Positions 11,201 through 62,622 of a DNA stretch of 64,000 nt are shown piece after piece. The stretch spans positions 62,001-126,000 of the forward strand of contig JABYQR010000028.1 in the NCBI GenBank assembly GCA_022592445.1, written 5' to 3'. Under the pieces are notes generated by a model. The model ran no database searches. It had not been told where the DNA came from and saw only the letters and a list, made by a program, of their open reading frames with translations. The DNA comes from Cytidiella melzeri. Lineage: Eukaryota; Basidiomycota; Agaricomycetes; Polyporales; Irpicaceae. Within the stretch, counting starts at the first letter, position 1. The number at the start of each line of letters is the position of its first letter. A program made the position numbers and the translations under genes.

Positions 11201-11826
11201 CGCTCAGAAGGAGTGTCCTCTTCCTCATCGGGCTGAAGTTCGTCTAGGCAAAGGTAAGAAGCTGGAATGCGGAATATACAACACATATCTGCTTACCTTG
11301 TGCGTGGCCGACCGACACTGGTGAATCGGACCGGAGACTGTCATCCCGGAAGAAATCCTCATATTCATCGCGTGGCGGTGAGCGCGACGAAGGACGGTTT
11401 AGTCCGTCGCTGTCGTTAGCTGGCAGACTCGGTGGCCCGGGTGGGGCAACGTCCTATGATGTTTCCGGTAAGCCGACTATCACTCCAAAGTAGCAGGGCA
11501 CTTACTACATCCATGCCATGCCTAGCAGCGCTTTGACCGTCACCTGTAGCAGCCTCCGCATGCTGCCGTCTGCTGCTACTACCCGCCAGTGCATTGCGGA
11601 TATAAGCCGCCCGTTGGTCTACCTCCTGCTGAAGACCGCGCCCATATAACTTGACTGGGCGGTTTTCGGCAATAGCTTGCAGCTGCGCTCTGACGAGTTT
11701 CCGGTGGTCATAGTAGGTTGAGATCGGGACCCACTTGGATGGCTTGCATCGGATGCCACATTCACACAGTCTGTGGCCAACTGGTGTACCGGGAGGCCGC
11801 TGATTGTGTTCACTTGGTGGCTGCAT
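8287..11826 (-). CDS. Tnp2-family transposase, intact
   Basis: Four exons, complement(join(8287..8694, 8758..11243, 11297..11453, 11506..11826)), give 1123 aa with no stop; introns are 52, 53 and 63 bp. Exon 1 carries CECGIRCKPSKW and an acidic linker follows. CX2C pairs (CINTC, CPMC) lie near residues 335-357. The core has SMDGAQLYRMKESDCW near 450 and FLGDGPG near 540, candidate sites of the DDE acidic residues, then a SGFPPSR..CFPADIMHL block. The C-terminal exon (EIAEVQFYF, SMWSPPDPQLLEWS) matches the tail I know from basidiomycete Tnp2 proteins. It should cut and rejoin element ends in the nucleus. It is in opposite orientation to 6370-7037. The donor of intron 3 is GTGCTT, weaker than the rest. 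The element could still be mobile. Confidence 0.9.
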
Positions 11827-34939: not shown

Positions 34940-37477
34940 CCCGCGCCAGGGTTACACATTCTTCAGGAATCGCAATGGAACCCCAAATCAAGATGGGGTG
35001 ATAGATATAGTTGTGATTCTCAACATGAAGATAGGCAACCACAAAGAGAGAACCATCTTCATGGTAACCAATATTGGACCTGAGGATGTTATCATAGGAA
35101 TCATTTGGTTGTGGTACCACAACCCCATCATTAATTGGTATGAATAGATTATCAGGATGGATGGATGTCCTGATGCGTGTAAACCCAGTGAACAGGTTGA
35201 GGAAGCAAAGAGGCTTCAGCTAGGAGAACAGCTGAATCTTAACAGCAGAAGAAGACGCCAGGACTGCAGAAGGCTGTGGAACAGCTTCTGTATTCTCATG
35301 TGGAGACAGAGGAAGCTGAAGAAGAAGTTGAGAAAACCACAGAAGGTTCAAAAAGTTTGAACACAGCTGAGTTGCTGAGATTACAGGCACAAGCAACCAC
35401 TCAGCTTGGGGGAAAATGTTGTTTTTAGCAGGGTTTTGATGCGCGCACAGGAAGGGGGCTCGAAGGGATGAACACACTGTTATTAGATAGCTACAAAATA
35501 CAGGGTTTTATATTATTTTAGTAAAGCGGATAGGACAAAAAGAGAATATCGAAATGAGTTATCCGCGCGGAATGATGAAAGGCGGGCGGCGGGAACAAGC
35601 GGATGCAATCAAAAATGAGGCGGAAAACCTAAAATAACAACAGAAAAGAAACTCCACAACATATTGTACACTTGTGTCCTATACTGTTAATACATCAAGG
35701 TGAAAATCTGCTTACATTGGAAGGGTACACATACTCCAATGAGCTGGCAACAGCTGAAAACCGTGCAAAACTAGTTAAGACTTTAGAGAGATGGTACCCG
35801 AGAAACACTGCCAACATGCTCACATCTCTTTAGAAACAGAGTATCATTGACTCCCAGAATAAAAGTTGTACAATCATACAATGAGGTTAGTTTCTGAAGC
35901 AGAGATATTCTGCTCAAAGGTTTATTTGTTATCACAACCTGAGCAAGCACCACTTGATAAGTTCATAAGAGAGAGCTTGAAGAAAGGGTATATTTGACTG
36001 TCAAAGTCCCCAATGGCATCACCCTTCTTCTTTGTCAAAAGGAAAGATGGGAAGCTAGGTCCAGTACAGGATTACCAAAAGCTGAAAAATGTCACAATTA
36101 AGAATTGTTACCCCCTATCGCTGATATGCAAGCTTCTGCACCAACTCAAGGATGCTTGGTCCTTCCCCAAACTAGATGTCAGATGGGGATACAACAATTT
36201 TTGTACCAAACAGAGAGATGAGCACAAGGTGGCATTTGTCAACAATTGTGTACTCTTTGAACCCATGGTCATGTTCTCTGGTTTTATCAACTCTCTGGCC
36301 ACATTCTAGAACATGATGAACAACATCTTTGTTGACCTCATAGCCAAGTGCAATATCACTGTGTATGTAGATGAAATTCTCAAAGGAGATAGCAGAACAT
36401 TGTGAAGTAGTGCATGAAGTCCTGAGGCAACTGAGATAACATGATTTGTTCCTAGAACCTGAGAAATGCAAATTCAAACACTCTGAAACAGAATATCTTG
36501 GTGTGATCATTGGTCACAATCAGTTACACATGAATCTGGTCAAAGTAAAGGCAGCTGCTGAGTGGTCCATGGTGCAAATGTCAAACATCCACCAATTCCG
36601 TGGGTTTGCAAAATTCCATCAAAGGTTCATCAAAGACTTTGGCAAGATATGCAAACTGTTAGACCATCCCACAGGTAAAGTTACCTGGACATGGGGAGTA
36701 GAAGAACAGTCAGCTATTGATGAGCTCCAACAACACTTTGTCGAAGCTCTGGTGTTAGCAATGTGGGGTTTTGAAAGACCCACGCATTTGGAAATGGATG
36801 CATCAGGGTTTGCCATAGGCGGCATACCTAAAAAACAAGCTGAAGACAGCACGTGGCACCCAGTAGCTTACCAGTCTGAAGGAATGACCAAAACAGAACA
36901 GAACTACAAGATAAATTGTGAGCTCATGGTGATTGTGCGCAATCTTGAAGACTGTGCCATGATTTATAAGGATTGCCAGAGAAGTTTCCTATATATTCTC
37001 TGATCACAATAACATCAAATATTGGAAGACGGCACGTAACTTGACACATTGTCAAGCACAATGATTGATACTCTTCTCACGCTTCCAATTCAATATCATC
37101 TCAAACCTAGGCAAGTGTATGGGAAAGTCATATCCAATGTCACGATTTGGCCAACACAAGGTCAAAGACAAAGAAGGCAATCTGTCATGCATAGTCTTAG
37201 CCCCCAAAAGATTCCCAGCTGCTAATTCTCAATGAGGACAAGTAAGTGTACCACCTGACCGTGATCTTCTCAAACAAATGTTCTCTGAAAGAGACCAAAG
37301 TGGCAGAAGCGCTTGCCAAGATCAAGGACCTCAGACCTTGACTCCTTAGCCAAGAACTTGAAGAGTGGAATATAAAACCCAGACTTCTACTATTCCGGGG
37401 AGAGGTTTACGTTCCCAAGAACAACAAGATTTGAAAGGAACTAGTCAGCAGAGACATTGACTTACCTGCAGCCCGTC
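34940..37477 (+). pseudogene. Gypsy-3: decayed protease, RT, RNase H and integrase start
   Basis: Plus strand, many stops and shifts. Protease tail IGPEDVIIGIIWLW and NPIINW (35080-35140); RT with FFFVK-KDGK, VQDYQKLKNVTIKNCYPL and LDVRWGYNNF (36020-36210), catalytic box decayed to VYVDEIL; FLEPEKCKFKHSETEYLGVI (36446-36505); RNase H start MDASGFAIGG (36795) and TKTEQNYKINCELM; then RGEVYVPKNN (37400) and the beginning of the integrase zinc region, cut at 37478 by an LTR. Confidence 0.85.
35417..35642. repeat. Short insertion (226 bp), mini solo LTR-like
   Basis: TGTTGTTTTTAG...AAATAACAACA with exact 5-bp duplication GAAAA (35412-35416, 35643-35647), placed between the protease and RT remnants of Gypsy-3. 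TG...CA ends plus a 5-bp duplication suggest a very short LTR (TRIM/SMART-like); the inverted TGTTGTT ends would also suit a miniature DNA element. Confidence 0.6.
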
Positions 37478-40979: not shown

Positions 40980-41495
40980 CTCCCTGCGAACATGCATGCT
41001 TAAGCACAGATGCCCTCAATCTTCGTACCGTAGATATTGTTGAAAATGTAGTGCGTTCAAAAAATTCATTTTTTCTACCGGTTACAATTTGGGTTTACGG
41101 AAAGAAAGTGCAGGTTGAAGCTCTGGTAGATTCAGGAGCCACAACCACGTTCATCAGTATGTCAGTGGTTGAAAGTAGCAATCTGGTAACAAATCAACTG
41201 GCATCACTGTTTAACGTCATCAACGTTGACGGTACTCCCAATAAAGATGGTCAAATCACTCACTCAGTATGTGCATACCTAGAAATAGGTTTGCAGAGAG
41301 CAAGACAACACATGCTCATTACTGATTTTGATAGTGAACAAATGATTATTGGGATGACCTTCTTACGCTGTCACAATCTGGAGATAGACTGGGCAAATGG
41401 CAAGTGGAGATTTACTAGATGTCCTGAGCTCTGTGCCCCAAGAGCTCGTAAAAACATCACTGTAACTCAAAAAGAGATTGATGACCTTGAGTTAC
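40976..41495 (+). pseudogene. Gypsy-1 protease, cut by the Gypsy-2 LTR
   Basis: Aspartic protease with an intact active-site motif ALVDSGATTTFIS near residue 51 and a second conserved part MIIGMTFLRCHNLEIDW. The native frame ends at 41495, where the Gypsy-2 5' LTR begins; the open frame runs on into LTR sequence to 41638. RT and later domains of Gypsy-1 are not found on the far side of Gypsy-2. Confidence 0.85.
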
Positions 41496-42549
41496 TGTTG
41501 TGGATGGCCCAACTAGCCCTTATTTTTCGCAATTTACCTCTTGTTTTTATCTGTAAAACTCCGGGCTGCAACCTAGTTGCAACCTCCTCTGAACAAACTC
41601 CTTGCACGTCTATTCAGCGCCCGTATCACGTGGCTTAGACGCTCTACATGGTCACATTACTTGCTACTGTACTGGCACAACCCAAGGTTTGGGTCACGGT
41701 CACAAGGCCTCCAAACATTGTCATTTTGAACATCGGTCACAGGTCACAGACCCTCGCGAACTTCCGGCTGGGTGTGTGACCTCAGGCGCTTATAATATTA
41801 CCCCATATTTTTTTGAGGGGAGCACTCTGCGCACACACAGGTGCCTATTGATACTTTCAGATGTTTGTTGGTCACAGGTCACTGCGTGTTTTGAACTTCC
41901 GAATCTTCAAACATCTGAGGGTCACAGTCACAAGCCGCAAACCTTAGGTCGTGCCAGTACAGTACTACATCACACTGGCATGTGACTTAGCTTAAGTAAG
42001 ACCACATGGCTACAACCACATGGCTTAGCCCATAGCTAGGGTTTGACGTCATAGATACTGTTCACATGGACTCCTTTTGTTCTTTCCCTATTGTTCTCTT
42101 TATGGAAGGATGCTCTCACAGGTGTGGGGATGGAATACAATACTTGGTCCCCTTTTAGGTAGATTCTCTCACGAGTAGAGTTCTTGGCAAGGTCTAGACA
42201 ATAGCTGTTGTTCTCCTTTAGGTAGTTCTTTTGTTCTTCGTTCACATGGCTTCTTGCAAAGCCTGCCCTTAACATGGTCTGTGCGCAGGTCCCTGAAGTC
42301 TATATAAGATGCTGCATGTACGCTCCTAGCCCCCCATCTCGACCTCTTGGTCTTTACTGGGCTAGGTAAGCAACTCCCTCCTGTACTACATAGCTAGTAG
42401 TACTCAATGCTAACTTGGTCTTTACTGGGCTAGCTTTCTGAATAAGTTTGATAGCTGGTGAGCGCATTGTGCTTCACACCTGCCACCACCTCCTTGTCAT
42501 CATCCACATTGTGTCCCTGTTTGTCACGTCGAGCCCCGTCTCCGTGTCA
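41496..42549 (+). repeat. Gypsy-2 5' LTR (family B)
   Basis: TGTTGTGGATGG...CGTGTCA. It is 1054 bp including a 296-bp insertion plus its TA; 756 bp without, against 757 bp for the 3' LTR. TATA-like CTATATAAGATGC near 42300. Confidence 0.9.
41667..41962. mobile_element. Miniature element with TA duplication (Tc1/mariner-like)
   Basis: Ends CTGTACTGGCACAACC and, inverted, CTGTACTGGCACGACC, with about 26 bp of terminal similarity. TA at 41665-41666 and 41963-41964. The 3' LTR has the uninterrupted site TTGCTACTACGTC at 57922-57934. It is 296 bp long, without coding sequence. Confidence 0.88.
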
Positions 42550-42695
42550 TTAGGTCAAGATCGTTGTGAAAACCCTGGGTCCCCCATTCTCACCGTTTTA
42601 AAAAGTTTATTCCTGTTTGACGAGTACGTCTCCAGTCTCTCCATACCGTTGAGCTACACTTATGTCGTCCGTTTCTACCCCATGCGCGTTGTTTA

Positions 42696-43424
42696 GTGCC
42701 TAAAGACACGCGCCCCCGTTTTTCTAAGAACCTCCCTGCAACTGAGCCTCAGCTCAAGAGGTCTCTTCCACCATCTTTCCTTGACGCTCTCGCTGAAAAG
42801 CGTAAGAGCGGTCAACCTCATCGCTGGTCTGACAAAGACCTGGTCACCGTCGCAAAGTATGTGTCCAAGAAGCCGCCTGTCAAAGGCATCACCCTCACCG
42901 TCCCCTCTTACGAGGAAAACCAACAACTTTGCGCTTCTGCATGAGCATACGGAGAACGAGCTGCTGAGAAGCGTAACCGTACCTTAGCTGAACAACATAT
43001 CCACAAGCTCACTCTTGCAGAGCGACTAGCAAAGCTCCCTGCGCCAACTCCCGCCCATGCGGCACCCAAGCCAGTACTCAGCAACTTTAAAAAGTTGTCA
43101 CCGGTAGATCTTGTTGGTATCTTCAGGCCAAAACTCACCGCCGTCTGCACTCACCTGCAAGCTCTCACAGAGCTTGAAGAACTCCTGAACCGCGCCAACC
43201 CCGACTATTGTTGCGTGCTGCTTCACCTTGTCAACAAGGTTAATTGTTTCCTCAACCGAGTCAACAATCTCGCACCCGTCACAGCAGACCGCAAGTGGCA
43301 GCTCCTAGACTGGGCTTGCAAAGCAATTGAGAAAGTTTCATTTAAGCAGCTTCGCAAAAACTACGACAAAGTCCTCACACAACTTAACGTAGTAAATAGT
43401 GATCGCTATTTTGAGTGGATCTAG
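42696..43424 (+). pseudogene. Gypsy-2 ORF upstream of gag
   Basis: About 242 aa, with one TGA at 42942-42944. The start is uncertain (reading begins KDTRPRFSKNLPATEP). The helical C-terminal part has LSNFKKLSPVDLVGIF and ELEELLNRANPDY. It parallels the ORF at 39046-39726 in position and character. Function unknown. Confidence 0.5.
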
Positions 43425-43657
43425 CAAATCCATAGTTTTTGCCCACCACGTCTTGCAATAATTGTATACACTTCTTCGATTTGAGCATGGTCACAGACGA
43501 CCACTTCTACGGAGGAATATTCTACAAGTGTGACGACCAGCCATGTCCAAATTGATACACTCAGGCAGACTCATCTGAAGCTGTCAACGGTGAGTATCAC
43601 TCTGAACATCACCAGACGCCCACCAAAGAAAATCTACATCTCATCACGCAAAAAGAC

Positions 43658-45643
43658 ATGGATCCTAACCAGCCCACCACCACTGCTGCTCCCGCTGCTC
43701 CCGCTGCCCCCAACCCCACACCCAACCTGAGTGGCCAGGACGTCTTAAACATGTTTGGCATTTTAACACAAAGGATGGTTGAGCTCACCGACCAAGTCAC
43801 CGCACTAGCCGCTGCACAACCAACGGCCGTCGCCGCCGCCACTCACGGCTCCAGGGAACAGAGCATTGTGGAGAAGCCGGTTTCATTCAAAGGAAAGACA
43901 TCGTCGGAAGCAAGGTTCTTCTGGCACGCCTTCATAGTCTGGGCCCAGAATCAGGGCAAGGCCTTCTTCCAGCAAGATGCACAGGGACAAGTCCGGCTGG
44001 ACAACAACGGCGCGAGGATCTTTGATCCTCATAAACTCATGACCAGTGCCTTTTCTTTCATGCAGGAGGACACCGCTGATTGGGCTCGCCCTCACATCGA
44101 GGAGCTGGCCAATAGCAAACCAGCATTTGGAAATAGCTGGGACACATTTATCGAGGCTTTCAAAGCCAAATTTGAGCCTATAGATGCTGTCATGGATGAC
44201 ATGGATAGTCCAACAGACCAGATTTTTCCAACAGTTGTCACAAGTTTACAGCCTTAAGCGCCTATCTAGAGCGCTTATTTTCCGGCTAGAAGTGTTACCA
44301 GACCTAACCCTAACCCGGGTCACGTGACATCCTGCCTTATTTATCAATAGTCCAGACCCAAACCCTAGACTCAGTCTGGAGCGGTTCCAGATCAACCTAG
44401 GCTATTGTTCTATTGTTCCTCTTCCATTGATGGGGATTTCCCAGGGATTCCCCCAGGTCTTATTGTTCTATTGTTCTTATCCTATTGTTCTATTGTTTTA
44501 TTGTTCTAGCTCTATTGTTCTACGTACTCAGGTCCTTGACAGTTACTCAGGTCCTTGACAGTTACCCTGGTTCCTTATTGTTCTATTGTTACTCCAGTCC
44601 CACAGTTACTCCAGTCCCTAGTGTGGGAACTGGTGCACAGACCACACAGACACAGTATATATAGTACCCCTTACCCTCCCTGGTTCTGCATCTTGACCTC
44701 TTTGTCATTTGCACTGCCAGGTGAGTTACTCAATGTAACCTAGTATAAGCATGATATTAACTTCGTCATTTGCACTGCCAGTATCCGGCCCTAGTGCCTG
44801 CTTGCCTGCTCATCATCGACTTTGACCTCGTTGTCGTCGTTGGAGATCCACCCCTTCCTCTCTACTTCACTCCCTTTTTAGGGTTATCAGCATAGCAGCA
44901 GTCGCTCCGCGACAATGGAGGCCAAAAGAAAAATCGCCAACATGAAGCAAGGCAATAAGACCTTTGCCGCCCACATCTCTGAGTTCGAGACATAGGCCCC
45001 TCGCACTGGCTGGAGCCAGCAGGATCTCTTTGACCGTCTCAAGTCGAGCTTGAGCACAGAGTACTTGCAACGCGTCTCGTACTTCCAAACCTGCGCTGCT
45101 ACCTACAACGCTCTCAAGGACCAGTGCAAGGCAGTTGATGCTCAGCTCGCCGATCTGTGTAACAGCACGGGAAAAGTCATGGTGGACAGCTCGTCGGGAC
45201 ACGGCAAGTCCCACCAACAAGCGTTCCGCAATCCCAACGCCATGGAGATCGACACCTCTCGCTTTTCCACCTTGTTTGACGTACTCTTTGCAGGACTAGG
45301 AAAGCAGGAGATCTTCCAGAAATGGAAGAAAGAGATGAGCAAGCACTGCTCGGTTTGTGGTTCTGAGAATCACAAGAAGAGGGATTCGAAGCACCCCAAT
45401 GACCCGGTGTGCAACCACTGCGGTGGTACTGGTCATTGGGAGGCGGTTTGCCTGAAACAACTTCAAGGTGTCCCTAAGGGACAAAAAGTTGCTGCTACCT
45501 CGTCGACCTCGTTGACTACTACTACACCGAAGCAAGACGCATCCACTGACAAGGATGCTAAGATTGCTGTGCTCAAGGACATGTTGGACATCCAGAAGAA
45601 GCAAATGGATGAAATGGCTGCTAAGATCAACGCGGTTTTTTGA
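43658..45643 (+). pseudogene. Gypsy-2 Gag, interrupted by a solo LTR
   Basis: MDPNQPTTTAAPAAPAAP start; capsid-like PVSFKGKTSSEARFFWHAF and FIEAFKAKFEPIDAV. Here LTR D is inserted; after it the frame resumes as MEAKRKIANMKQGNKTF. A TAG lies at 44993-44995. Two zinc-knuckle-type motifs near the end: CSVCGSENHKKRD (last ligand Asp, not Cys) and CNHCGGTGHWEAVC (canonical CCHC). Ends KINAVF. Confidence 0.85.
44197..44914 (+). repeat. Solo LTR, family D (718 bp)
   Basis: TGACATGG...TCCGCGACA flanked by the exact 5-bp duplication ATGGA (44192-44196, 44915-44919). Removing it with one copy restores the Gag frame GTC-ATG-GAG-GCC. Contains several CTATTGTTCTATTGTT runs and a TATA-like AGTATATATAG near 44655. 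Confidence 0.9.
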
Positions 45644-45803
45644 AAAGGACTCGTGACATAGCCGCAGCTGTGAGTCCCCCCGATACCCCGTCCTTGTTTT
45701 CCTCGTCTTCTGCCTCGTCGTCTTCGTGTACAAAGTCTATCCCCTGTCTCTCGTCTACTATCTCCTCGTGTACTATATTGTCGCTAGATCGGTTGTCATC
45801 TCA

Positions 45804-45830
45804 CTAGCGTAAACCCGTGCGCCGCACGGG
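45804..45830 (-). other. Helitron 3' terminal hairpin and CTAG end
   Basis: Seven-bp stem with a 3-nt loop, six bases before the terminal CTAG: the transposition-terminator structure of Helitrons. Confidence 0.93.
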
Positions 45831-46146
45831 GAGTCCAATTTTGGTAGAGGTAGAAGTTGTAGTATGGCTCCCCATTGGTCAAAATCCACATTTGCTTCAA
45901 GTCAGATTTCCTACCAGTAGACAGCATGTACAGCTACACTGTGACACAATTTTGTGTGCACACAATGAATACTGAGCAAAGTGTTAATGGTTCTATCTTG
46001 CGCCTCTAAGGCGCCTAATCAGATGCGGCATAGAGAAATGAGATTGTTCAAGTCTACAATTCGGATGAAGCCACAATCTATGTAGATGCCAATATATGGA
46101 ATGTAAAGTAAATAGCGTCATTTGAGGCAATGGGACAGTGGAAAGA

Positions 46147-47183
46147 CTATGATGAGTTGCTCTCTGGAGCGGCTGTGCTTACGGTGCTGCGGCATTTTGA
46201 CAACAGCTCATCAGAATGATCTCCGTCGTCGTCGTCGTGCTTTTGTTGCTTGCCCAAGGCTACAGGAGATGGAGAGCACATATTGGTAGCCTTCTTCCCG
46301 TAGCGTGACTTTGCAAGTAGATTGTTGCTTCCGGTCTCTGTACAAATGGTCGTGATCATGAGAAGGACAAAGAGGAAATATATCAGCGGAACAACAGACT
46401 CACTTTGAGGTGTGGAAGTGGCAGTGCGCTCCGTTGGAGGCTTAGCCAGATACTCAATCACATCGACGATAACAACCAAACGTGCAAACGTTTGCCCGTT
46501 CCGGGATTCCTTCTCATAGTGGCTGAGAACGCCCGCACAGGAGACAATGCTGCGAGGAAAAGGGAGAAGTGACGCGGGATCCTTCCACTTCTTGCTCTTG
46601 GGTAGAACACATTTGAGTGGCAGAACCGGGCGGGAGTCTTTGCCTGTCATAGATAGATACTGAGGGATATTGAGGGTGAATGATGAATTGTCTGGGTCTT
46701 GATGGATTGTGTCGACCGTGCCGGACATTGTAAACCGCGCACAGTGCTTTCCTGGGTTGACATCCATGTCTTTGATAGGGACAAACTCGTGCCAGCTCTA
46801 AGTACAGGACAGATGTCATGAGAAAGTAATTACTCACTGAGTTTGCGTCACCCATGCTATGGTATTCGTCTTCACTAAAGGTAGGGCTCGGACTCTCGAT
46901 GTTCTTGTCATAGGCTGCAATCTATGCGGAAATCAGAAGGAACGCTATAAAACATTCAAGTGTGACTCACCCTTGCGGTCAATAACCCCGTGGTTCCTTC
47001 AGGTTCAAACTCGTAGTTACTGCCGTTGAAGAGATGGAGGCGTGTAAGGACAGTCGAGTTTTCTTCCCCTTGTCCGAGGAGCAGGGCATCAAAACAAAGA
47101 CCTTTGGGTCACTTTGAATCGGGAGCACTCGGGCTCTCAAGGATAGCAATACAATGAACTTCAGCATAGCCTGATTCAGGCAT
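46147..47183 (-). pseudogene. Helitron accessory protein, possibly OB-fold/RPA-like
   Basis: Four exons, complement(join(46147..46337, 46404..46797, 46838..46921, 46971..47183)), about 293 aa, all phases consistent, with one TGA (47109-47111, codon 25). It opens MPESGYAEVHCIAILESPS; the middle has YDKNIESPSPTFSEDEYHS and HCARFTMSGTVDTIHQ; then VLPLKCVLPKSKKWKDP and LVVIVDVIEYLAKPP; the tail is Lys/Asp-rich. The alternating beta-like pattern and the position beside a Helitron helicase suggest a single-strand DNA-binding accessory such as the RPA-like proteins of plant and animal Helitrons, but this is inference. Confidence 0.5.
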
Positions 47184-47994
47184 AGCAGGAGTATAGAGGA
47201 ATGTTACGGCCTTGAAGGGGAGGACCATGAGTTTTATACCTAACCGTCATCCTGTGCTGTGCGTGATGTTGTTGAAAGTTCGAGCACCTTCTTGGCTAGC
47301 TGATGAAACTGGCAGAACATTGGCGAATGTCATGGGCAGAGTTAAAAGAGATACGCGTTGACGTGTCACAAAGTTGTGAGATTAGCTGCTAAATCTGTAC
47401 AAAAAATAAAAATCCGCGCGCAACTATTTGAATAGCGTGCGCAGATCAAAAACGCAACTTGCGCGCGAAGACGCCACGTGCTCCGGCGCATGGCGAAATG
47501 TTGCGCGCGGTTTGCAGTTGAAAGTCACAAACATAGTTTCAAAACACCCTTCCCGCTGTCCTATGGCTTGCATATGTGTGTCATCGTATACCTAGTCATG
47601 TCAGCTACTCTGTAAAACATGTCAGTTAGGTATATCCTCCTGTGATTGTTTTCAAAGTTTCAGCCCTTCTTCGGTCTACTGCTTTTGACTCTCCTCCATA
47701 GTTCTGTCACTTCAGCTTGTATTCTACTGCTACTATGCTTATTGAATTCAATTTTTTTACTCTAACTATCAGACCTTGTGGAATTCTTGTTGTTTCTACT
47801 ACTGCTAATGCGTAAAACGGTGCACAGTCTCAATTGGTCGTATTGACACATGGTCTATCATTATATTGGCCTGTACAACTACGTGAATAGGATCTGAGAA
47901 GGCATGAATAGAAATAGCAATTAGTTGAGTGTTCTGTATATAACACGAAAGAATCAGTTTAGCTGTGGTTAAAATTTTTCTAGTAAGGACATAC
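47184..47994. other. Spacer between Helitron genes
   Basis: No gene seen. It contains an alternating GC-rich patch (CCGCGCGCAAC, TTGCGCGCGAAG; 47410-47510) and AT-rich sequence downstream of the helicase stop. Confidence 0.5.
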
Positions 47995-50900
47995 TTAGTC
48001 TAGTAACACCTCAGGGTACACAACGTTAGGTGTTGCGTTTATAGCAGAATTGTCTGGGAGTAGTATCTTGATCCGGTGAGAAGAGGTTGCTCGTGACAGT
48101 GCAACATAGAGTGGACCATGACCGAAAACAGAGGTTCGCAAGTCAATGCCAACATGCTTTACAGACTGACCTTGTGACTTGTTGACTGTAAGCACATAAG
48201 CCAACTGAACAGGAAATTGGCGACGTTTCAGCTTGAATGCAAAGTCAATGCTGCTATTGGATGGTGAGAGTGTGATGCGAGGAATGAATGCAATGTCACC
48301 GTTGTGATCTCCGCCCATCAACCGAACTTCAAGTACACGGTTAGACATGCGAAGAACTGTAGCACGTGAGCCATTACAAAGTCCACTGTCTGATGCTAGG
48401 TTCCGCAGGAGAATGAGAGGAGAACCGTGCTTCAGTCGGAGATGTGCAACTGGAAGACCAGATGCGTTAAGCGGCTGGAGGTATTCAAGGGGAATATTAA
48501 GAGAAGCTGCATCATTGGATTCAGCTTCTTGCACAAAGGAATCGGCGCTGGTATAGATGTGCTCATCTCCAGGGTGGCGGTCAAGAATTTGCGCATTCAG
48601 GGCATGTACTTCATCATTCTGCGGAGCAAGAATGGCACGATGTAGAAAGTAGTCGGGAGGGGGAGACTCGTGAGGATTGGAACTGATGTCGCCATAAATG
48701 CTGTTGATGAGCTCTTGCTCTCCAGTGGTCAGCATGTGCTCTGGAAGTAGAACCACATTTAGTAAGCCATTGGCTGCATCTGGAGGAAGAAAATTGCGGC
48801 CATGTCCAACGTCAAGAAGCCATTGAGCAAACTGAGACGCTTCTGCGTTATGATCCAGGCGCATGTTCTGCCGCAAATGAAGCACTTTGATATTTGTCCA
48901 TAGCGGAGATCGCTGAAGAGTGGCAAGAACAATCTCCTTGCGTGTACCATGTACAATGATGGGAAGAGTTTGCTGGTAGTCACCGCCAAAAACTACCGTA
49001 ATGCCACCAAATGGGCTGGTATTCTGAAGTATGTCCTGGAGAGTTCGGTCCACAGCTTCAAGGCCATACCTATACAAATATCAGATTGTGTTACAAAAGC
49101 TTTCCAACCATCTTAAGACTTACCAATGTTGCATGACTGCCTCGTCCCAGATAATGAGCCAAACATGCCGAAGCATCTCAGCACGAAGTGACCGGAAATC
49201 TATGTTACACATAGAGTCATGTGAAAGGGGATCAATGGGAATTTGAAAGGTAGAGTGTGAAGTGCGTCCACCTGGGAGCAGCAGTGCAGCTATACCGGAT
49301 GATGCAACACAGAGAGCAATCCAGCCTTCACTGCGTACACGATGACAGAGTGTCTTGTATAGAAATGTTTTTCCTGTTCTGCCGGGTCCGTGAACAAAGA
49401 ACGTCTTTCCTGCTTGATCTGATACTGATTGAAATATTTCTTCAAAAGCATGTCGCTGCTCAGCGTTAAGTTGTGGTATTTGAGTGTCAGCCAATTCGCG
49501 CTCGTGCTGCCGAAGATATCGGAGCTGCTCGGTAAGGTAGGGATTTTCTTCACATATACCCCAATCCTTCTGCGGAAGTGGCATGGATGGAAACAATGAT
49601 AAGGATTTCCCGTGGTTGAGAAGGATGCGTTCAAGCAGAAATAGACCAAAGTCATATATATCATCTGCGGAGACATCCTCAATTCCACGTTGTTGGAGAC
49701 GCCATCGTAAATCATCACAGAGATGTTCACAGAACTCAAGCCATAGTTGATCAGGCTGAGATGGCTCGCACTGTTCAAGAATAATAGCAAACAGGCAACG
49801 TAAACTTTGGCCGGTACGCATTGCGGAGGCTTCATGAAGACATTGTCGCCACTCGTCATCACTTTCGAGAAGCCCACGTGCCAGGCATGCATCGTAGAAT
49901 GTGGGATGGATAATGTTATTGAATGTTTGCAGGTCATCCCAGGAAGTAGGGCCTTTGACAACTGAGAGAAGGGTGCAAAGATAGAAGCGTTCACCAGCGG
50001 TGGGAGGAACAAAGTACATGCGACCAAGAGCAAAGTTCTTTTGTCGAAGACTCCACTGCTTTGTAGTTGACTTCCAGACGAAATGCTGAGGGAATTGCTG
50101 ATAGGTGCATTGGCGTGCAGCAGCGCCTATGGGTCCAGATGCTCGGTTGGCAGCAAAGAACTCGGTCAACATGGTACGTTCGTGAGAGGCACGTTCCATC
50201 ACCACTTCAAGCAGGTCGTCGGGATTGAACACCACCATGTGTTGTCCAGGCAAGTGCACCTGCAAGCGCACCACGTTTGGAACCTGCTTGTGGATAGGAA
50301 ACTCAAAAAGTCGCCATATAGCCTCAGAGGCAGCAATATAGCGTCCTTCTCGGAATTCGTTGATTTCATCCTGCCTAGTGATCTCCATGGTTGCACGATC
50401 CGGGCCTTTATGAGTGTACTTTGTGATATACTTGGCAGCAGCAAAAGAAACAACGCACTCAACATTGATGTGGCAGTTGTACGTAGAGGACAGATACAGA
50501 TTGTAAGGAACAATCCAGCGGTTGTCAAGCTCAACACCGCGGACGTTATACACCCGGCCATCATTTGGACGTGCATATAATGGGTATCCCTCCTGTGTCA
50601 TGATTGTTTCTTCCTGGAAGGCCTTAGGAAAACCCTTTGTGCACTTGCCGTGATCCATGCAAGGAGCGTTAGGGTTAGCAGGCCCGCACGGACCATGCAC
50701 CATGCACCGCTTGACAATTTCAAACAGCACAGGCTCGGTATTGGGGTCAGGCCAGCGTGAGCGAACGATGGAGTCAACATGTTCAGGTCGTGTGATGCAA
50801 GATGACGCCTCTAGTATGAGAAGGAGATGCATATGGGGAAGGCCGCGCTTCTGAAATTCAATTGTGTAGACATAGGCAACCGCGCAACCAAAGGTACCAT

Positions 50901-53291
50901 TTTTGTATAGGTCTTGGATTATTGCATTCTTGTATAGCATGAAGACACGCGCAACCAAGTCCGGACGATCGGCAGCTGTCTGGCAAGGAAGTAATTCGTT
51001 GACAATTTCGGGCCAATTTGGATTGCAGGTGACGGTGATGAAGAGATCGAACTTGTGGTAATAGCGTGCCAGTGCCATTGCGTCCTGAAAAAGCTGATGC
51101 ATATAACAGGGACCACCAATATATGAGGATGGAAGGATTGTTCGCCGGCCAACTTGATGCAAATCAAGGTTGTCATCTGAATGTGCAACGGCGTCCTCGA
51201 GGCCACTATAGAGAGCAGCGCAAAGATCAGCCTGGTTGTTTTCTAGCCATCGAAGCCAGTTCTGATCTGTTGAGACCCAAACATCACAAATGTATTGCTG
51301 AAAGAGCCTTCCACCTCGGTGAAGCAGTGCAAAGCCATCATTGCGTATGTGGAGTTGATAGGAGTAAAATTGAACCTGAGTCATTCGTGTATGTGTTCTC
51401 TCAGACCCTTCAGTTGAACACAGGCAAAGAGTATATGTCCATCCACGTGAACCCCAAGGAAAGAGCAAGACATAGTGGAGTGGTGCGTAAGCGGGATGTG
51501 TGTCGTTTATGCGTTGCAGCAGCCCCGAAAAACAACGTAGAATGATGTCGCGAGAGTCGACAACTTGGTTTTTGTCACCAGGAACGATGACAGCCACCTC
51601 GTCTGTTGTTGGCAGATTATACCGAGGTTGATCATAAATGGGGTCAGCTATAAGCCGAACGGAAATGTCTTCCACATCATGATCTTCAAGGACCTGAAGA
51701 GCGTGCTGATAAACACGTGTGTAACGGTGAGACTCGAATAAAATGCTCTGAAGTAGCTCCATAGTATCCCGCCGGAGGTTAAAATTCCGGCCCATGCGCT
51801 TGTCGAGAGCCTCTCGTGAAACGTAGAAGATAAGTTGAGCATACGTAGGCCGACATCCTTCAAGTGGAAGAAGACTGCCTGTTTGATGATAGAGTTGATA
51901 GCCCATCTTCCAGATCCACGGTCCGCGTCCACCAGTATTGACGTTCTGCATATTGACGTTGAATGACGTAAACGCAAGTGCAGCATTGTATTGACGAATG
52001 TGCTCGCGGAAATCCATGGATTGGGGGTCGGTGCCGGTAAATAGTGCGCGAAGACGATGAGGAGGCTCTTCAATGGATGGCAGCTGGACCTGATTATGAT
52101 GACAACATCGCCCAAACTCAGGATGAGTTTTACTGCTTGCCTGTATTCTTTCATCCATCCAATGCTTTGCGCCACAGTGCAAACACAGAACATCCATACG
52201 CCCGAGGGAAAAGGATGTGACAGGCTCTGAGTATGGACGGCGACCTGCAGGTAGTGTAGCAGAGTGGCGGCGCTGTGATGCAGACAATCGTTGTTGAACG
52301 TTGTGTTCTGTGCAAACAATGAGTGCGCATATACACTATGATGCTGTCTGTTACCTACCGCGTGGGATTCGACGGACAGTGTTGGCTCTTAATGCAGGTG
52401 CAGGTGAGGAGCTGCCCCCGTTACCAACGTCGGCTGACTCGCCGCGCTGAGAAGCTAACTCGCTGGAGCGTACCACTCTTCGACCATTGCCCTGGGGATC
52501 TTGCGTAGCCGGTGGTGTTAATGGTTGTTGTGCGTTCGCCCTGTGAGTAGACAATAGTTGGAGTGAGGTGGGTTGGTGAGATGCTGTGTCCCGCGAATCT
52601 GAAGCCTCAGCTGTTTGCTGTCTTTGCTCTCGCTCTCGACGCTGCCGCTCTCGCTGAGCAATCTGTCGCCTTGTTAGAGGCTGCGACTGTGGAGGTGTGG
52701 GAAGCAGCTGATTATCTGACTGAAGATGGTTGTTGTTCTCCTGAGCTTGTCGCCGTCTTTTGTCCTGTCTCCGAAGGCGCTGAGCAACTTGTCGAGAATT
52801 TGGGGGGCAGTCATCAGCATCAACCTGGGAAGACACCCTGTGATGTGACACAGTAGCCACGAATGGATCTGAAAGCTGTAATTACAACGGCGAACTGTGT
52901 TTCACTCAAAATACAGACGTACCATTTGAATTGATCACAGTTCCGTGAGGTGCTAAGCGGGAAGGAGCCAGCATGAACGGTACCGGCAGATCAAGTCCGG
53001 GTGGACAGCAAGGAGTTCGCCGACGCTGAGGACTTGTCACTGACAAACGACGTCGAGCGCGAATAACACGTCGTTGAGATTCTAGAGATCCATAGGTGTA
53101 ACTCTGGCAAAATATGTAATTGCTCAACCAAATGTGCGAGTTATTGAGCACCAATGTGTCATACGGCGTACCTCATTCGATACAGCTGTGGTACGGCCGT
53201 GATGACTTGCACTTGGGTGATCATCGAGACCGTGCTCCTGACTGTTGCTACCTGGTGGGCTCGGAGGATGGCCAGTAATACCGGTGGCCAT
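47995..53291 (-). CDS. Helitron Rep/helicase, intact
   Basis: Five exons, complement(join(47995..49069, 49124..52307, 52359..52868, 52923..53103, 53172..53291)), give 1689 aa with no stop; phases agree at all four introns. N-terminus MATGITGHPPSPPGSNS, Arg/Gln-rich stretch, CxxC motif (CLHCGAKHW) near 313. Rep region: LFITVTCNPNWPEI, the HUH motif in FQKRGLPHMHLLLIL near 763, and KYITKYTHKG near 900 for the Rep tyrosine motif. Pif1-like helicase: Walker A HGPGRTGKTFLY near 1240, DEAVMQHWYG, VFGGDYQQTLPI, and VLTVNKSQGQS with YVALSRATS near the C-terminus. This enzyme nicks and peels one strand for rolling-circle transposition. The copy could be active. Confidence 0.95.
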
Positions 53292-53996
53292 TTGGTATGT
53301 CTATGACAGTTGTGTAGTGAGCAGTAGACCTTGCACATACATAGCCTTTGCTTGCGCACCTGTAACTGTGAGAGTCCTACCCACAAACTACAGTATGTCA
53401 ACTCGGAGTTGCGCAACACAAATGCTGTTCTATAATAATGAGTTTGAGAAGAAATAAGAACTTTGCGCACCATGTACACATTCCCTGAAGTGGCGGCGTA
53501 TACAGTGTACCGATCACTGGACACTCCATTAGTTTGCCAGCGGCGTAAACTGCGTAAGTCGCACCGACAATGCATAGCCAACGTCGAATCATGGAGAACA
53601 CACATAGTGAAACACTCTGAAGTGAACTGTGTATTCATGAGTACCAAAGTATATGTACAACACGTGGGCGGCAAAAGAAGAGCGCATTAAGCAGGGCGGT
53701 GAGCGGGAAGCCTTTAGGTAGTGAGAGCATGGTCGTGGAAGAAGTTGGGGGTGCGCGGCCGACAGATTACGCATCAGCGCTGGTCTCCTTATTCGGATAG
53801 AGCGGCTGTTGCTGTGACGCAGGTGGCGTCCACAAACTGGTGAATCAGTAGCTTGTGCTTTTTTCCTACGTCATAGCGCTTGTCACTGTGTCACGTGGGC
53901 TGCGATGCAGCCAATCAGAACACATTTTTATGGTGGCGCGTTTATGTTGCGGTGGGGCTCACGCGTTCGACCGCGTTTTGCTTTATTAAAAGAGGA

Positions 53997-56900
53997 TTTC
54001 CGTGTACATGTACTAGTTAAAGGTCTGAATAGAAGCATTCGCATTCCTGCTATGATCAATTCAGGAGCTACGGCTTTATTCATCAGTTACCAGTTCGTCA
54101 AGAAGCTTAAGATTATTCAGCACCCGCTTGAAAGGGTTATCTCATTGCATAATATCGACGGAACTAAGAATAAAGCTGGCGGAACACACTTCGTTTGCCT
54201 TACACTCACAGTCGGAGATCACACAGAAAAGGCGGAGTTTCTTGTCACGGACTCAGGTCCAGAAGACGTCATTCTTGGGCTACCATGGCTCAAGCCCGTA
54301 AACCCTACCGTTAACTGGGAAAAAGGAGAAATGACAATTCCAAGCGGCTCGGAAGAATCTCCTGACAGACCTTTCCAGAAGGTTGACAGTAATTGCAAAG
54401 AACGTAGACAGTGGGTCAAAGCCGGTATTATCCAAGACACCACTGACAAAGTCTGGTGTATGGCCGGCTTCACCTACTCTACTAAGCTTGCTGCCAAAGC
54501 AAACAAAGCTAAAGCTCAGCACTCCTTCGAAGACATTGTTCCATCAGAGTACCATAGACACGCTAAAGTCTTCTCTGAGGAAGAGTCTAATCGGCTACCC
54601 CAGCATCAGCCCTGGGACCATTTGATTGATCTCAAACCAGACACTCCTGAGACCATCAAATTGAAAGTTTACCCTATGCCCCTGAATGAACAAGCTGAGC
54701 TTGACAAGTTCATCCAGGAGAACCTATCCAAAGGTTACATCATGCCTTCCAAGTCTCTGATGGCTTCTTCAGTTTTCTTCATCAAAAAGAAGGATAAAAA
54801 ACTCCGACTTATTCAGGACTATCACAAACTCAATGACATCACTGTGAAGAACTGCTACCCTCTACCGCTTGCCACTGACATTATCAACAAGCTCAAGGGT
54901 GCAAAGATCTTCACAAAATTCAATGTTCATTGGGGATATCACAACGTCTGAATTAAAGAAGGAGATGAGTACAAAGCGGCTTTTGTTACCAACCAAGGAC
55001 TCTTCGAACCTAAGGTCATGTTCTTTGGTCTCACAAACTCACCTGCTACCTTCCAAGCTCTGATGGACAACATCTTTGCCAACCTCGTCGCTGAGGGCAA
55101 GGTGGCTGTCTATCTAGATGACATCTTGATCTGGAGCAACAACCTGACAGAGCACCGCAAGGTTGTACATGAAGTCCTCGAGCAACTTCAACAGCATGAT
55201 CTCTACCTTTGGCCGGAAAAGTGCGAGTTTGAAAAATCTGAGATTGAGTACCTCGGGTTGATCATTCGCGCCGGCGAAGTAGCTATGGACCCTGTCAAAG
55301 TCCAAGCAGTTTCTACGTGGTCTACACCCAAGAACCTCAAAGAAGTTAGAGGATTCATCGGGTTTGCCAACTTTTACCAACACTTCATTCAGGATTTCTC
55401 AAAGCACGCACGGCCTCTACACGACCTGACTAAGAAGGACATACCGTTTGTCTGGGGTCCAGCACAACAGACTGCCTTCACGTTGCTGAAGAAGGCCTTT
55501 ACCACTAAGCCTATCTTGGCAGTCTGGGACCCTGAGCTTCCTACATGTCTAGAAGTCGATGCCTCGGGCTATGCAACCAGTGGAATCATCTCCCAGAAAT
55601 CGAAGGAGGATTGATTCTACCACCCCATCGCCTACCGGTCTGCATCCATGACTGAAGCAGAGCGTAACTACAAAATCTTTGATCAGGAGATGTTAGCCAT
55701 CACCGAAGCTCTCAAAGATTAGCGCCACTACCTTGAAGGGCTCAAGGAACCGTTTGAGATCTAGACAGATCATGCAAACCTGCAGTACTGGAAAACTGCG
55801 CAACACCTCACTCGAGGTCAAGCACGTTGGTCATTACTCTTGGCTGACTTCGACTTTGTGTTAGTTCACAAGCCTGGCAGTACCATGATACACACTGATC
55901 CTCTTTCTCGTCTTCACTCACATGCTGTCACGGACAAAGAAGACAACAAGGATCAGGTGGTACTGAAACCAGAACACTTCCGGATCCTTGCTACCAGTGC
56001 ACTTGCCACTGCTTCTCCACTCAAATCAAAGATCCGAGAATGCACGGAACAAGAAGCAGAAGTCGCACAAGCTCTCGCTACCCTTTGAAAGAAGGGTCCT
56101 CGCAAACTTGTCGGCGGTTTACTTGAATGGGAAGAGAGTGACGGACTCATCTATTACAAGGGAAAACTCTACATCCCTAATAACAAAGAGCTCCGTTACG
56201 AAATTGTCAAATCTTGCCATGACACTCCTGCGGCTGGTCATCTGGGCAAACACGGCACCATGGAACTAGTCTCACGACACTATTGGTGGCCAAAGATGAA
56301 TGCCTACATACAGACTTACGTACTAGGCTGCAATCGCTGTCAACGCTATAAGTCAGCTCCACACCCTAAAGCAGTACTACAGCCTCAGGAAACTCCGGCC
56401 GGACCTTGGGAACACGTCGGAGTAGATCTCATCACTCAGCTACCACCCTCTAAGGGATTTGATTCAATCGCAGTCTATGTCGCCCATTGCTCCGGTCAAA
56501 CGCACATCATCCCTACCACCACTAAGGTTAACGCTGAGGGGATTGCCGATCTACACTACAAAGAAGTATTCCAACTTCATGGCATTCCCAAGAAGGTGTT
56601 CTCTGACCGAGGACCCCAGTTTGCAGCGCGCTTCATGCGTGCGCTCTATCACTGCCTAGGCATAGAGACTGGTTTTACAACCGCCTATCATCCGCAAGGA
56701 AATGGCAAAGTTGAACACAAAAACCACAATATTGAACAGTACCTGCGTCTATTCTGTCAGCAACAACAAGACGACTGGGTTGATCATCTGCCGGCGGCTG
56801 AGTTTGCACTCAACTCGCGAGTACATGCAGGTAACTCTTAAACACTGTTTGAAGTCATCTACAGATATCACCCCGGCTTTACCATACCAGTCGGCAAGTG

Positions 56901-57618
56901 AAGCAATATCCCGTCGCTCGATGAGCGCCTTGACAACATGGCTCGAGTACGCAAAGAGACTGAAGCAGCTCTTTGTCTAAGCAAAGAAAAGATAAAGCAA
57001 CTCTACAAATCTGAGAAGCAATCTCCACGCATCTTCCAGGTTGGCGACATGGTCTAGCTGAATGCTAAGAACATCCAAATCCACCAGGCTACCCCTAAAC
57101 TCGGCCCGTACAAAGTCATCAAGCACATCAGCGATCTTGACTACAAGCTCGATCTACCTAACTATCTCCGAATCTACCCCGTCTTCCACATCAATTGTCT
57201 AAGTCCCTGACATGACAACAGCAAAGACATACCTCCACCTCCTGATCCTATTGTCATAGAAGGAGAAGAACAGTACGTCGTCAAAAAGGTGCTAGACAGC
57301 AGGCTACACGGACGATGGAAGAAACTGCAATTCCTTGTCAAATGGGAAGGGTATTCAGAGGGACACAATAGCTGGGAACCAGTAGAAAACCTCGAGAATA
57401 GTCAAGAAGCGATTGACAACTTCTACAAGCAAACCCCGGAGCGCCCCAGGTCATTAAAGCTTTACTCTTTGCAGATCTCCACTCGCACTTTCGGGAATTC
57501 AAAACCCCGACCGACCCCGCTTTCCTTTGCACAATCTATCCATCTACATACGATCTTAGCTGGGATGAAGGCAAACACATCAGTCTGGATATCTCAAAAA
57601 CATCACAATGACGGGTAA
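53997..57618 (+). pseudogene. Gypsy-2 Pol: protease, RT, RNase H, integrase, chromodomain
   Basis: Continues the frame that ends at 45803. Protease MINSGATALFIS: the active-site Asp is Asn (AAT at 54058-54060). RT: LIQDYHKLNDITVKN, FTKFNVHWGY, YLDDIL. RNase H: DASGYATSG. Integrase: HHCC zinc region (HDTPAAGHLGKHG, CNRCQ), then VDLITQLPP, FSDRGPQF and the Glu in GNGKVEHK. Chromodomain YVVKKVLDSRLHGRWKKL, FLVKWEGYSEGHNSWEP near 57270-57430. Stops at 54949, 55612, 55720, 55762, 56086, 56839, 56899, 57055 and 57208. The chromodomain would steer integration to modified histones. Confidence 0.92.
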
Positions 57619-57755
57619 TGTCGAGTCAACAACACTAGAAGGGGAGAAACTTCCTAGCATCCTTCTGACTAGACAATCAGGCAATTCTGCTGAATCCCTG
57701 TAGATGGGTAGAAGACCTCTATCACCACAGCACAGTGATACTTCGCGAGGGGTAA

Positions 57756-58512
57756 TGTTGTGGATGGCCCGACTAGCCCTTATTTTTCGCAATTTACCTC
57801 TTGTTTTTATCTGTAAAACTCCGGGCTGCAACCTAGTTGCAACCTCCTCTGCACAAACTCCTTGCACGTCTATTAAGCACCCGTATCATGTGGCTTAGAT
57901 GCTCTACATGGTCACGTTACTTGCTACTACGTCACACTGGCATGTGACTTAGCTTATGTAAGACCACATGGCTACAACCACATGGCTCAGCCCATAGCTA
58001 GGGTTTGATGTCATAGATACTGTTCACATGGACTCCTTTTGTTCTTTCCCTATTGTTCTCTTTATGGAAGGATGTTCTCACAGATGTGGGAATGGAATAC
58101 AATAGTTGGTCTCCTTTTAGATAGATTCTCTCACGAGTAGAGTTCTTGGCAAGGTCTAGACAATAGCTGTTGTTCTCCTTTAGGTAGTTCTTTTGTTCTT
58201 CGTTCACACGGCTTCTTGCAAAGCCTGCCCTCAACATGGTCTGTGTGCAGGTCCCTGAAGTCTTTATAAGATGCTGCATGTATGCTCCTAGCCCCCCATC
58301 TCGACCTCTTGGTCTTTACTGGGCTAGGTAAGCAACCCCCTCCTGTACTACATAGCTAGTAGTACCCAATACTAACTTGGTCTTGACTGGGCTAGCAACT
58401 TGAACAAAGTCTGATAGCTGGTGAAAGCATTGTGCTCTACGCCTGCCACCACCTCCTCGTCGTTTTCCACTTCATGCCCCTGTTTGTCACGTCGAGCCCC
58501 GTCTCGGTGTCA
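57756..58512 (+). repeat. Gypsy-2 3' LTR
   Basis: 757 bp, preceded by a purine tract. Collinear with the 5' LTR apart from the miniature element present only there. Confidence 0.9.
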
Positions 58513-60489: not shown

Positions 60490-61050
60490 ATGTGACTCAG
60501 TATATCATAATACATCACCCGTGAACTCTGGTTGTTTAACTTTTTCTGGCGTTGGTCAGATGCAATTGCTCTGCGTTCCGCGCATGACGGACTTGAACCA
60601 ATACCATTGGTCTAGCGGATGAGTACAGTGACGTGTAGTCACACGTCAACGCCTGCAAGTCACCCGTACAACTGATGAAGGTAGGCTTTTATTTCAAGCT
60701 CTGCTGAGCGGCAGGCTTGCCGAGTCCGCACAGTGTCTTTGACAGTCCACTCATGTCCTGAATCCGCAGGTGAGCCTCTCCATCCGTCGATCTGTCTTGC
60801 TACTCACTGACGTCCATGCAGATCGGACCATTCGCCATGTAGCAACCATTCTCTGTATCCACCGCGCCCAACGTCCTTGTATGTTATGCTGTGGATGGCG
60901 TGTCATGGTGCTCTAGTATATATGAGCCATGCTCTTCACGTCGGACTCCAGGCTGCCTCCTATCCTTCATTCTTCGAGCCCGGCGCTCTTCACATCGCTG
61001 TGACATTTTCTTCCTTCGCGTTCATTCTAGCACGGCTCACGTATTTCACC
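60490..61050. other. Intergenic
   Basis: About 560 bp between uL3m and the next plus-strand gene. Nothing firm; an open frame from 60891 runs through the true start of the next gene and is not supported. Confidence 0.5.
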
Positions 61051-62622
61051 ATGCAACTTTTCACGATCCTTTCTTCCGTTATCCTTCTGGCCGGAGCCCG
61101 ACCCCTTCCTCAGACGTGAGTTCCCAATGTCCAATTAGGCAAGCATGGCTGACTGGTGCTCATAGCGCAATCCCTGCCGACTCTGTGAGTCTCAACAGCA
61201 CTACCACTATAAGCGTGCAGGACGCGTTGAGCCTCCTATCAGCTGGTGCATCCGCTTCTGCCACGTCCCTCCTTGCTTTGACCTCCAGTCCACCAGCCTC
61301 TGGTTCAGCTTCGGCGTCGATTACCTCTGCCGCTTCCGCTGCATCGGTGTCGGCTTCAGCAAGTGGCTCCGCCATAGCAAGCGACTCTGTTCTTGCCTCT
61401 GCATTGCTCAATAGCACAGACTCAGCCACCCCAGTATTCTCAAGCGACTCTTCAGTTCCCACTTCGTTGACAGACGGCTCCGACAGTAACTCTACTGACT
61501 CAGCCTCAACGGTCTTGTCTAGCGACTCTACCCTTCCCACGGTATCAAGCGACAATGGCACCGACACCGCTTCGGCCGCGGCGTCCTCTGCCACTGCCAC
61601 AAACGCAGGTGTCAGTTACATCATACCCACTGCTATCCCTCAGGCTTGCATGGTGCTGACTGTGCCCAACGTGTCGGCCTCAAGTGTCATCACTGCCAGC
61701 ATCGCAGATAGCACCGGTGTCTCGTCTGACAGTCTGAGCTCCGTGCTCTCTGCCACTGATGCAGACACACTGAGCTCTGTGCTCTCTTCCGTCGATACAA
61801 ACACGCTGAGCGCCAGCGCCACTCTGTCTGCTCTCAACGTCTCAGCAACGGATTCGCTGGTGTCGAATTCATTAGCCGGTAGTGTCGCCGCTACCGCCTC
61901 CGTGTCAGTTGGCAGCGCAGCGTCGTCTGCAGTTGCCTCCATTCTCGCTAGCAGCGATGCATCCCTTTCGGCCTCTGCTGCCAGTGCAACTGCTGCTGCA
62001 ACAGACTCTATCGTGGCGCCTTTGACGCTTGCGAAGCGTATTGCTCAGGCGGACCTCCCCTCTGTCGCTCAAAGCTGGCAAGATCTTTGCGTAAGTCTCA
62101 CTTGTACTGCTGTCTTCGAATACTTTACTCAACATATATGTTCTATAGCTTATAAGTGGAGGTGACATATTCACAAACGAACCATGCGTGCAGCTCGCGG
62201 GTGTGAATGGGATCAACGCCCTCCTCGCCGATGCGGACCCTTGCGATCAACAAGACAACGCTGACGCGATGATCGACTTTGCCAAATCCGCTGGAGTGAC
62301 CAACTCGGACGCACTCATCGCAAACGCCATCGCGTACAGGCAGCATCCTCGTAACGCCTTCAGTATTAACGGCATCACTCCTTCGACTCCCTATTGCCAA
62401 ACCGCACCGCGAAACTCGGAATTGCAGGGGCTTGTGAATGCTCAGCTGCCGGACGTGAACCCTGGTGTATTTGGTGGACCTACCTTTGGGCTTGTGGCAT
62501 TTGGCGATCGTGAGTTGAATCCCTATATCTACAATAGCCGCGGTATCTCATGCTGTCCTTGATTAGCTTCCTCGTGTCCGTTTGGAACCTCTCCTGATGT
62601 TGATAGCTGTGGTTGCTCTTGA
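61051..62622 (+). CDS. Ser/Ala-rich secreted protein with conserved Cys-containing C-terminal region
   Basis: Four exons, join(61051..61115, 61166..62090, 62149..62509, 62567..62622), give 468 aa. Signal peptide MQLFTILSSVILLAGARP. About 300 residues of Ser/Ala/Thr-rich, probably O-glycosylated, sequence with NST/NGT/NVS sites follow. The C-terminal 150 residues have SWQDLC, GGDIFTNEPCVQLAG, ALLADADPCDQQDNADAM, TPSTPYCQTAPRNSELQG and the end CPFGTSPDVDSCGCS. I recall such tails from other basidiomycete secreted proteins of unknown function. The last intron (62510-62566) is chosen because it yields this Cys-rich end; reading through would end at 62562. Likely cell wall or extracellular. Confidence 0.75.

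Follow-up and report, generated by a model that had tools for sequence, protein, structure and literature searches.

The window analysed here is a stretch of 64,000 nucleotides from the fungus Cytidiella melzeri (Polyporales, Irpicaceae; assembly GCA_022592445.1, contig JABYQR010000028.1, positions 62,001 to 126,000 of the forward strand). It carries a Helitron, a rolling-circle transposon, which occupies window positions 45804-53996 (8193 bp) on the minus strand, and which is very probably a canonical Helitron1-type element of this fungus, sitting at an A/T target within the protease region of a Gypsy-type retrotransposon, once autonomous, now decaying, and equipped with a second gene beside its Rep/helicase. 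Its ends, target and empty site are shown directly, and so are the domains and motifs of its protein. It is an ordinary Helitron but very well delimited: its ends are exact, its host is named, and empty sites are numerous.

Termini, target site and empty sites

The element and its setting comprise the following features (C and L numbers are our handles for other places in the genome).

45804-53996, minus strand: Helitron, 8193 bp, with termini common to other copies and with empty sites
53980-53996, minus strand: 5′ terminus, TCCTCTTTTAATAAAGC; the exact pattern of A plus 23 terminal bases recurs at C528 and C652, and with 2 mismatches at C188
45814-45830, minus strand: 3′ hairpin, 7-bp stem and 3-nt loop, 6 nt before CTAG
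45804-45807, minus strand: 3′ terminal CTAG; the same end, then T, at C725, C109, C620 and C721 (ATAG at C721)
45803-45803, plus strand: left target base A (T on the element strand); empty sites read A/T
53997-53997, plus strand: right target base T (A on the element strand); empty sites read A/T
41493-58512, plus strand: Gypsy-type retrotransposon hosting the Helitron, with direct repeats read as long terminal repeats (LTRs) at 41493-42549 and 57753-58512

Decisive evidence for the Helitron identity comes from other copies of the retrotransposon. A search with the left flank gave 275 first-look candidates; of these 40 were scored and 30 excised, the window's own copy among them, and in all 29 of the other Gypsy copies the two flanks lie side by side, giving an A/T target without duplication. 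The junction has no gap in 25 of the 29; the remaining four (L027, L028, L039 and L046) differ there by a single missing base or by one to four mismatches, and at L038 the right-flank match spans 47 bases only. When the flanks are joined they form one open frame, encoding a retroviral-type aspartyl protease, whereas in the occupied site the frame stops just inside the Helitron. The direct repeats, which we infer to be LTRs, match at 93.2% identity over 588 bp and at 95.5% over 176 bp. Upstream, 36001-36511 is 65% identical to 54748-55266 (plus strand), and thus marks a second, distant relative of the Gypsy-type element.

The termini are of Helitron1 type. On the minus strand the element closes with the stem CCCGTGC, the loop GGC, the stem GCACGGG, the six bases TTTACG and CTAG; the hairpin stem thus stops 10 nt short of the 3′ terminus, which fits the Helitron1 criterion of about 10-12 nt, and the TC ... 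CTAG ends fit that of a 5′ TC and a 3′ CTRR. When the window's 164 CTAG sites were tested on both strands, a perfect 7-bp hairpin 4-12 nt upstream turned up twice, each time on the minus strand: at the Helitron end (6 nt away) and at 45299 (12 nt away). Across the 49.7 Mb genome, with up to 3 mismatches allowed, the 5′ pattern (A plus 23 bases) was found at 4 places and the 3′ terminal pattern at 5, window copy included, and these matches are above chance because reversed patterns, run as controls, gave 0 for both termini. A loose TCT...CTAG pattern was rejected as a Helitron finder, since its 4506 matches lay below the reversed control and were uninformative.

Searches with the terminal regions led to 9 further places for the 5′ region (10 further loci at a looser cut-off) and 3 further places for the 3′ region. 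The base directly before the 5′ terminus is A at C188, C528 and C652, and also at C620, where the terminus is shortened; C300 was counted as non-independent because its flank is that of C528, and the 5′-region matches at C183, C481 and C141 lack a clean 5′ terminus. C620 has two possible 3′ ends, CTAA and CTAG. At C725, C721 and C620 the 5′-side and 3′-side parts are joined within a few hundred bases, and these copies therefore look like short non-autonomous derivatives; the initial 165 bases on the 5′ side are missing from C725 and survive only as traces in C721. Four loci (L054, L055, L059 and L060) match the Helitron 5′ region in part, to element position 247, and then share a different sequence (CTCAGACRACCACCATCC...), as if they were one short derivative family arising from a single deletion or template switch.

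The original prediction had given the ends as 45803 and 53997, which is right almost to the base but includes one flanking base on each side. What it had read as a TC start, hairpin and CTAG end recurs in other copies, which it had suggested looking for and which the terminal searches found; the 29 empty sites agree with its A/T insertion, and its view that excision repairs the Gypsy frame holds for the joined flanks.

The Rep/helicase gene and related copies

47995-53291, minus strand: Rep/helicase gene, 1689 amino acids; exons 53291-53172, 53103-52923, 52868-52359, 52307-49124 and 49069-47995
50812-50844, minus strand: GLPHMHLLLIL, the HUH motif
50407-50433, minus strand: KYITKYTHK, the two-tyrosine motif
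49366-49389, minus strand: helicase motif I (Walker A), GPGRTGKT, in which R is a private change

In agreement with the gene predicted earlier, the Rep/helicase has five exons with GT-AG introns and 1689 codons with 0 internal stops. Its Pfam domains are PF14214 (Helitron_like_N), PF05970 (PIF1) and PF21530 (Pif1_2B), and by domains and motifs the fusion of a Rep (HUH, two tyrosines) with a PIF1-type helicase, as in Helitron1, is present. The best solved relative is the bat Helraiser (7lcc, E 1.4e-200). Among the best 120 of 2848 proteins the top match, encoded on a 10.3-kb contig of Dentipellis fragilis, covers 92% of the main exon at 68% identity. The window Rep clusters with it and one metagenomic protein (support 100/100) in a tree built from 23 selected proteins.

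Within the genome there are 12 PF14214 matches, some of them fragments of one gene, and a search with the window Rep matched only the window and C188. This C188 sister (L049/L051) is 96.5% identical to the window copy over 4.4 kb, with 7 stop codons in the compared exons; it also has two insertions, one of about 0.8 kb where exon 2 starts and the other, some 8.5 kb long, inside exon 5.

A second gene within the element

46147-47228, minus strand: second gene; exons 47228-46971, 46921-46838, 46797-46404 and 46337-46147

Between Rep and the 3′ end, inside the ends common to the short derivatives, lies a four-exon gene that the original prediction had missed. It is represented by the public protein BC835DRAFT_1412472 of Cytidiella melzeri, and has one in-frame stop in the window copy, a TGA at 47111-47109 in exon 47228-46971, across which the public gene model draws a predicted intron of 51 nt. 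Two protein searches gave only four relatives, from two fungal orders and metagenomes. One of them is a full-length protein from a distant fungus, Gloeopeniophorella convolvens (BC834DRAFT_890484), whose 67% identity is much like the 68% seen for the nearest Rep among its best 120 of 2848 matches. Because the nearest listed Rep (Dentipellis) and this relative both come from Russulales, horizontal transfer between Russulales and Polyporales was weighed; we do not claim it, as the identities also fit old vertical descent with patchy sampling. In the genome, besides the gene itself, a DNA search gave only a 41-bp match at C673 and a protein search only C55 (E 0.003). The C55 frame, which we assume to be trpE-like, was rejected as a host progenitor, tblastn having shown no second-gene-like stretch beyond scattered chance matches. 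Viral contigs held no relative.

An OB (oligonucleotide/oligosaccharide-binding) fold has the strand order b-b-b-a-b-b. The core of the second gene product is modelled, with low confidence, as a single OB-fold of the SSB (single-stranded-DNA-binding protein) type. Whether the gene made an OB-fold helper that bound single-stranded DNA during transposition is, on this model, evenly poised. Against such a role, the product matched no Pfam family (one chance match), no PDB sequence, and nothing among SSB or RPA (replication protein A) proteins. More tentatively, some agaricomycete Helitrons may encode their own SSB-like single-OB-fold protein beside the Rep/helicase (RepHel), gained independently of the RPA-like genes of plant Helitrons, which would be convergent recruitment of a helper that binds single-stranded DNA in rolling-circle transposition. 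In the part of the literature covered, no fungal Helitron was described as carrying an SSB-like gene, and no paper named Cytidiella melzeri.

Probable decay, alternative readings and known Helitrons

By analogy with Helraiser, the HUH nuclease/helicase would cut one strand at the 5′ TC end, unwind it and halt at the 3′ hairpin and CTAG, and a circle would form and insert at AT without target duplication. The window copy was presumably autonomous once and would now be decaying, largely through CpG changes, while its second gene, whose product was perhaps a helper, holds a stop. The genome search found no near-identical copy. Between the window and C188 Reps the synonymous divergence (dS) is 0.037 and the nonsynonymous (dN) 0.031, a ratio of 0.82, which is close to neutral. 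Their 96 amino-acid differences fall 38 on C188 and 20 on the window copy (38 unplaced) with Dentipellis as outgroup, 37 and 11 (48 unplaced) with Phanerochaete, and 34 and 12 (50 unplaced) with Antrodiella. CpG-type transitions, counted as CpG losses, number 53 on C188 and 27 on the window copy, and the CpG ratios are 0.75 and 0.83. When Dentipellis is the outgroup, the C188 and window branches do not differ in the number of amino-acid changes relative to CpG changes (Fisher p = 1.0). That a transposase frame has stayed open is thus weak evidence of activity, because here the open copy matches its broken sister in this measure.

Constraint was also examined at 222 near-invariant sites, positions at least 95% conserved among 120 homologues. 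The window Rep departs at 12 of them, more than 115 of 121 proteins do, yet much of this is a lineage trait because Dentipellis departs at 13 of 216. At these 12 sites C188 has the window's residue at nine, a stop at one and the consensus at two (633 and 1247), so that R633C and G1247R are private to the window copy. G1247R lies in Walker A, where 99.1% of homologues have glycine; the Walker A lysine, whose mutation in Helraiser abolished ATP hydrolysis and transposition (PMC4778049), is kept. Judging from the sequence, G1247R is nevertheless a likely loss of function, and the helicase of this copy is probably impaired. With Phanerochaete or Antrodiella as outgroup, amino-acid changes relative to CpG changes are fewer in the window copy than in C188. 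In favour of activity, the window Rep frame has 0 stops against 7 in C188, which hints at some selection (p = 0.09).

That the insertion is recent and still autonomous, with G1247R tolerated, is close to the earlier description of the element as recent and perhaps active, and could draw on the stop-free 1689 Rep codons, the two intact ends and the fewer CpG-type changes than in C188. We consider it unlikely, and the description unsupported, since the closest long copy found in the genome is a broken one at 96.5%, dN/dS is 0.82, Walker A carries a private change and the second gene is interrupted. The surrounding repeats, at 93-95% identity, also speak against it, although they set only an old upper bound and give no date for the Helitron. 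A far more sceptical reading, that ends merely resembling those of a Helitron were picked by eye around an immobile Rep remnant, could appeal to the shortness of TC and of CTAG (164 times in the window); it is refuted, and its probability is negligible, because the empty sites join at exactly the Helitron end bases in 29 of 29 cases, and both ends are common to independent copies.

For the second gene, the alternative is chance read-through capture of a host gene with no role in transposition. Helraiser is known to pick up DNA from its flanks (PMC4778049), and the gene belongs to no Pfam family, is interrupted here, and was not found in other Helitron copies of the genome (the C188 contig ends inside Rep, short of its position). 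Capture nevertheless seems rather doubtful to us, as no progenitor was found elsewhere in the genome, the few relatives differ across orders about as much as Rep does, and the gene sits inside ends that short derivatives share.

Elsewhere in the window, an 853-amino-acid open frame at 8731-11292 (minus strand) scores 28.5 bits against Transposase_21, for which the Pfam cut-off is 28.6, and points to a further DNA transposon. A Copia-type reverse transcriptase (RVT_2, E 9.8e-73) lies at 20536-22035 (minus strand), and a Ser/Ala-rich open frame of 440 amino acids with no Pfam match at 60843-62165 (plus strand).

A close likeness is to the HELPO1 Helitrons of Pleurotus ostreatus, with their AT target, 5′ TC, CTAG-type 3′ end with a hairpin and a RepHel, intron-bearing in HELPO1.1 and HELPO1.2, downstream of which lies a gene without known function (Castanera et al., 2014, PMC4289320). 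A downstream gene present in one element and patchily distributed is common to both systems, the match being one of architecture; relatives of capB, one of the Pleurotus downstream genes (capA/capB), are patchy beside RepHel in other species, and the authors report no RPA domain in the Pleurotus RepHel, which has about 1400 amino acids against 1689 here (PMC4289320). With 19 intact Helitrons counted in one Pleurotus genome (PMC4289320) and pre-insertion sites used for Fusarium Helitrons (Chellapan et al., 2016, PMC5148889), the original claim that few fungal Helitrons are so firmly delimited was overstated. The Fusarium FoHeli elements also have empty sites, and some an additional open frame without a known domain, but differ in their Helitron2-type ends, with asymmetric inverted repeats and no terminal CTAG (PMC5148889). 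Helraiser/Helibat of bats share TC/CTAG ends, a 3′ hairpin, the AT target and RepHel; the Helraiser hairpin is longer, a 19-bp palindrome 11 nt from the end against a 7-bp stem here, and, unlike in the window Helitron, no second gene is mentioned in the parts consulted (PMC4778049, PMC5876387). RPA-like genes occur in many plant Helitrons; there too the element has an extra gene for a protein that binds single-stranded DNA, a function only putative here (PMC4683698). Unlike plant RPA, the fungal protein has no Pfam or PDB match to RPA, and its low-confidence model is a single SSB-type OB-fold.

If the OB-fold reading is real, the second gene would correspond, in a fungus, to the RPA-like genes carried by plant Helitrons. 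Were its product a single-stranded-DNA-binding helper, rolling-circle transposons would have taken up proteins of that kind more than once, and one 'captured gene of unknown function' of a mushroom Helitron would gain a testable role.
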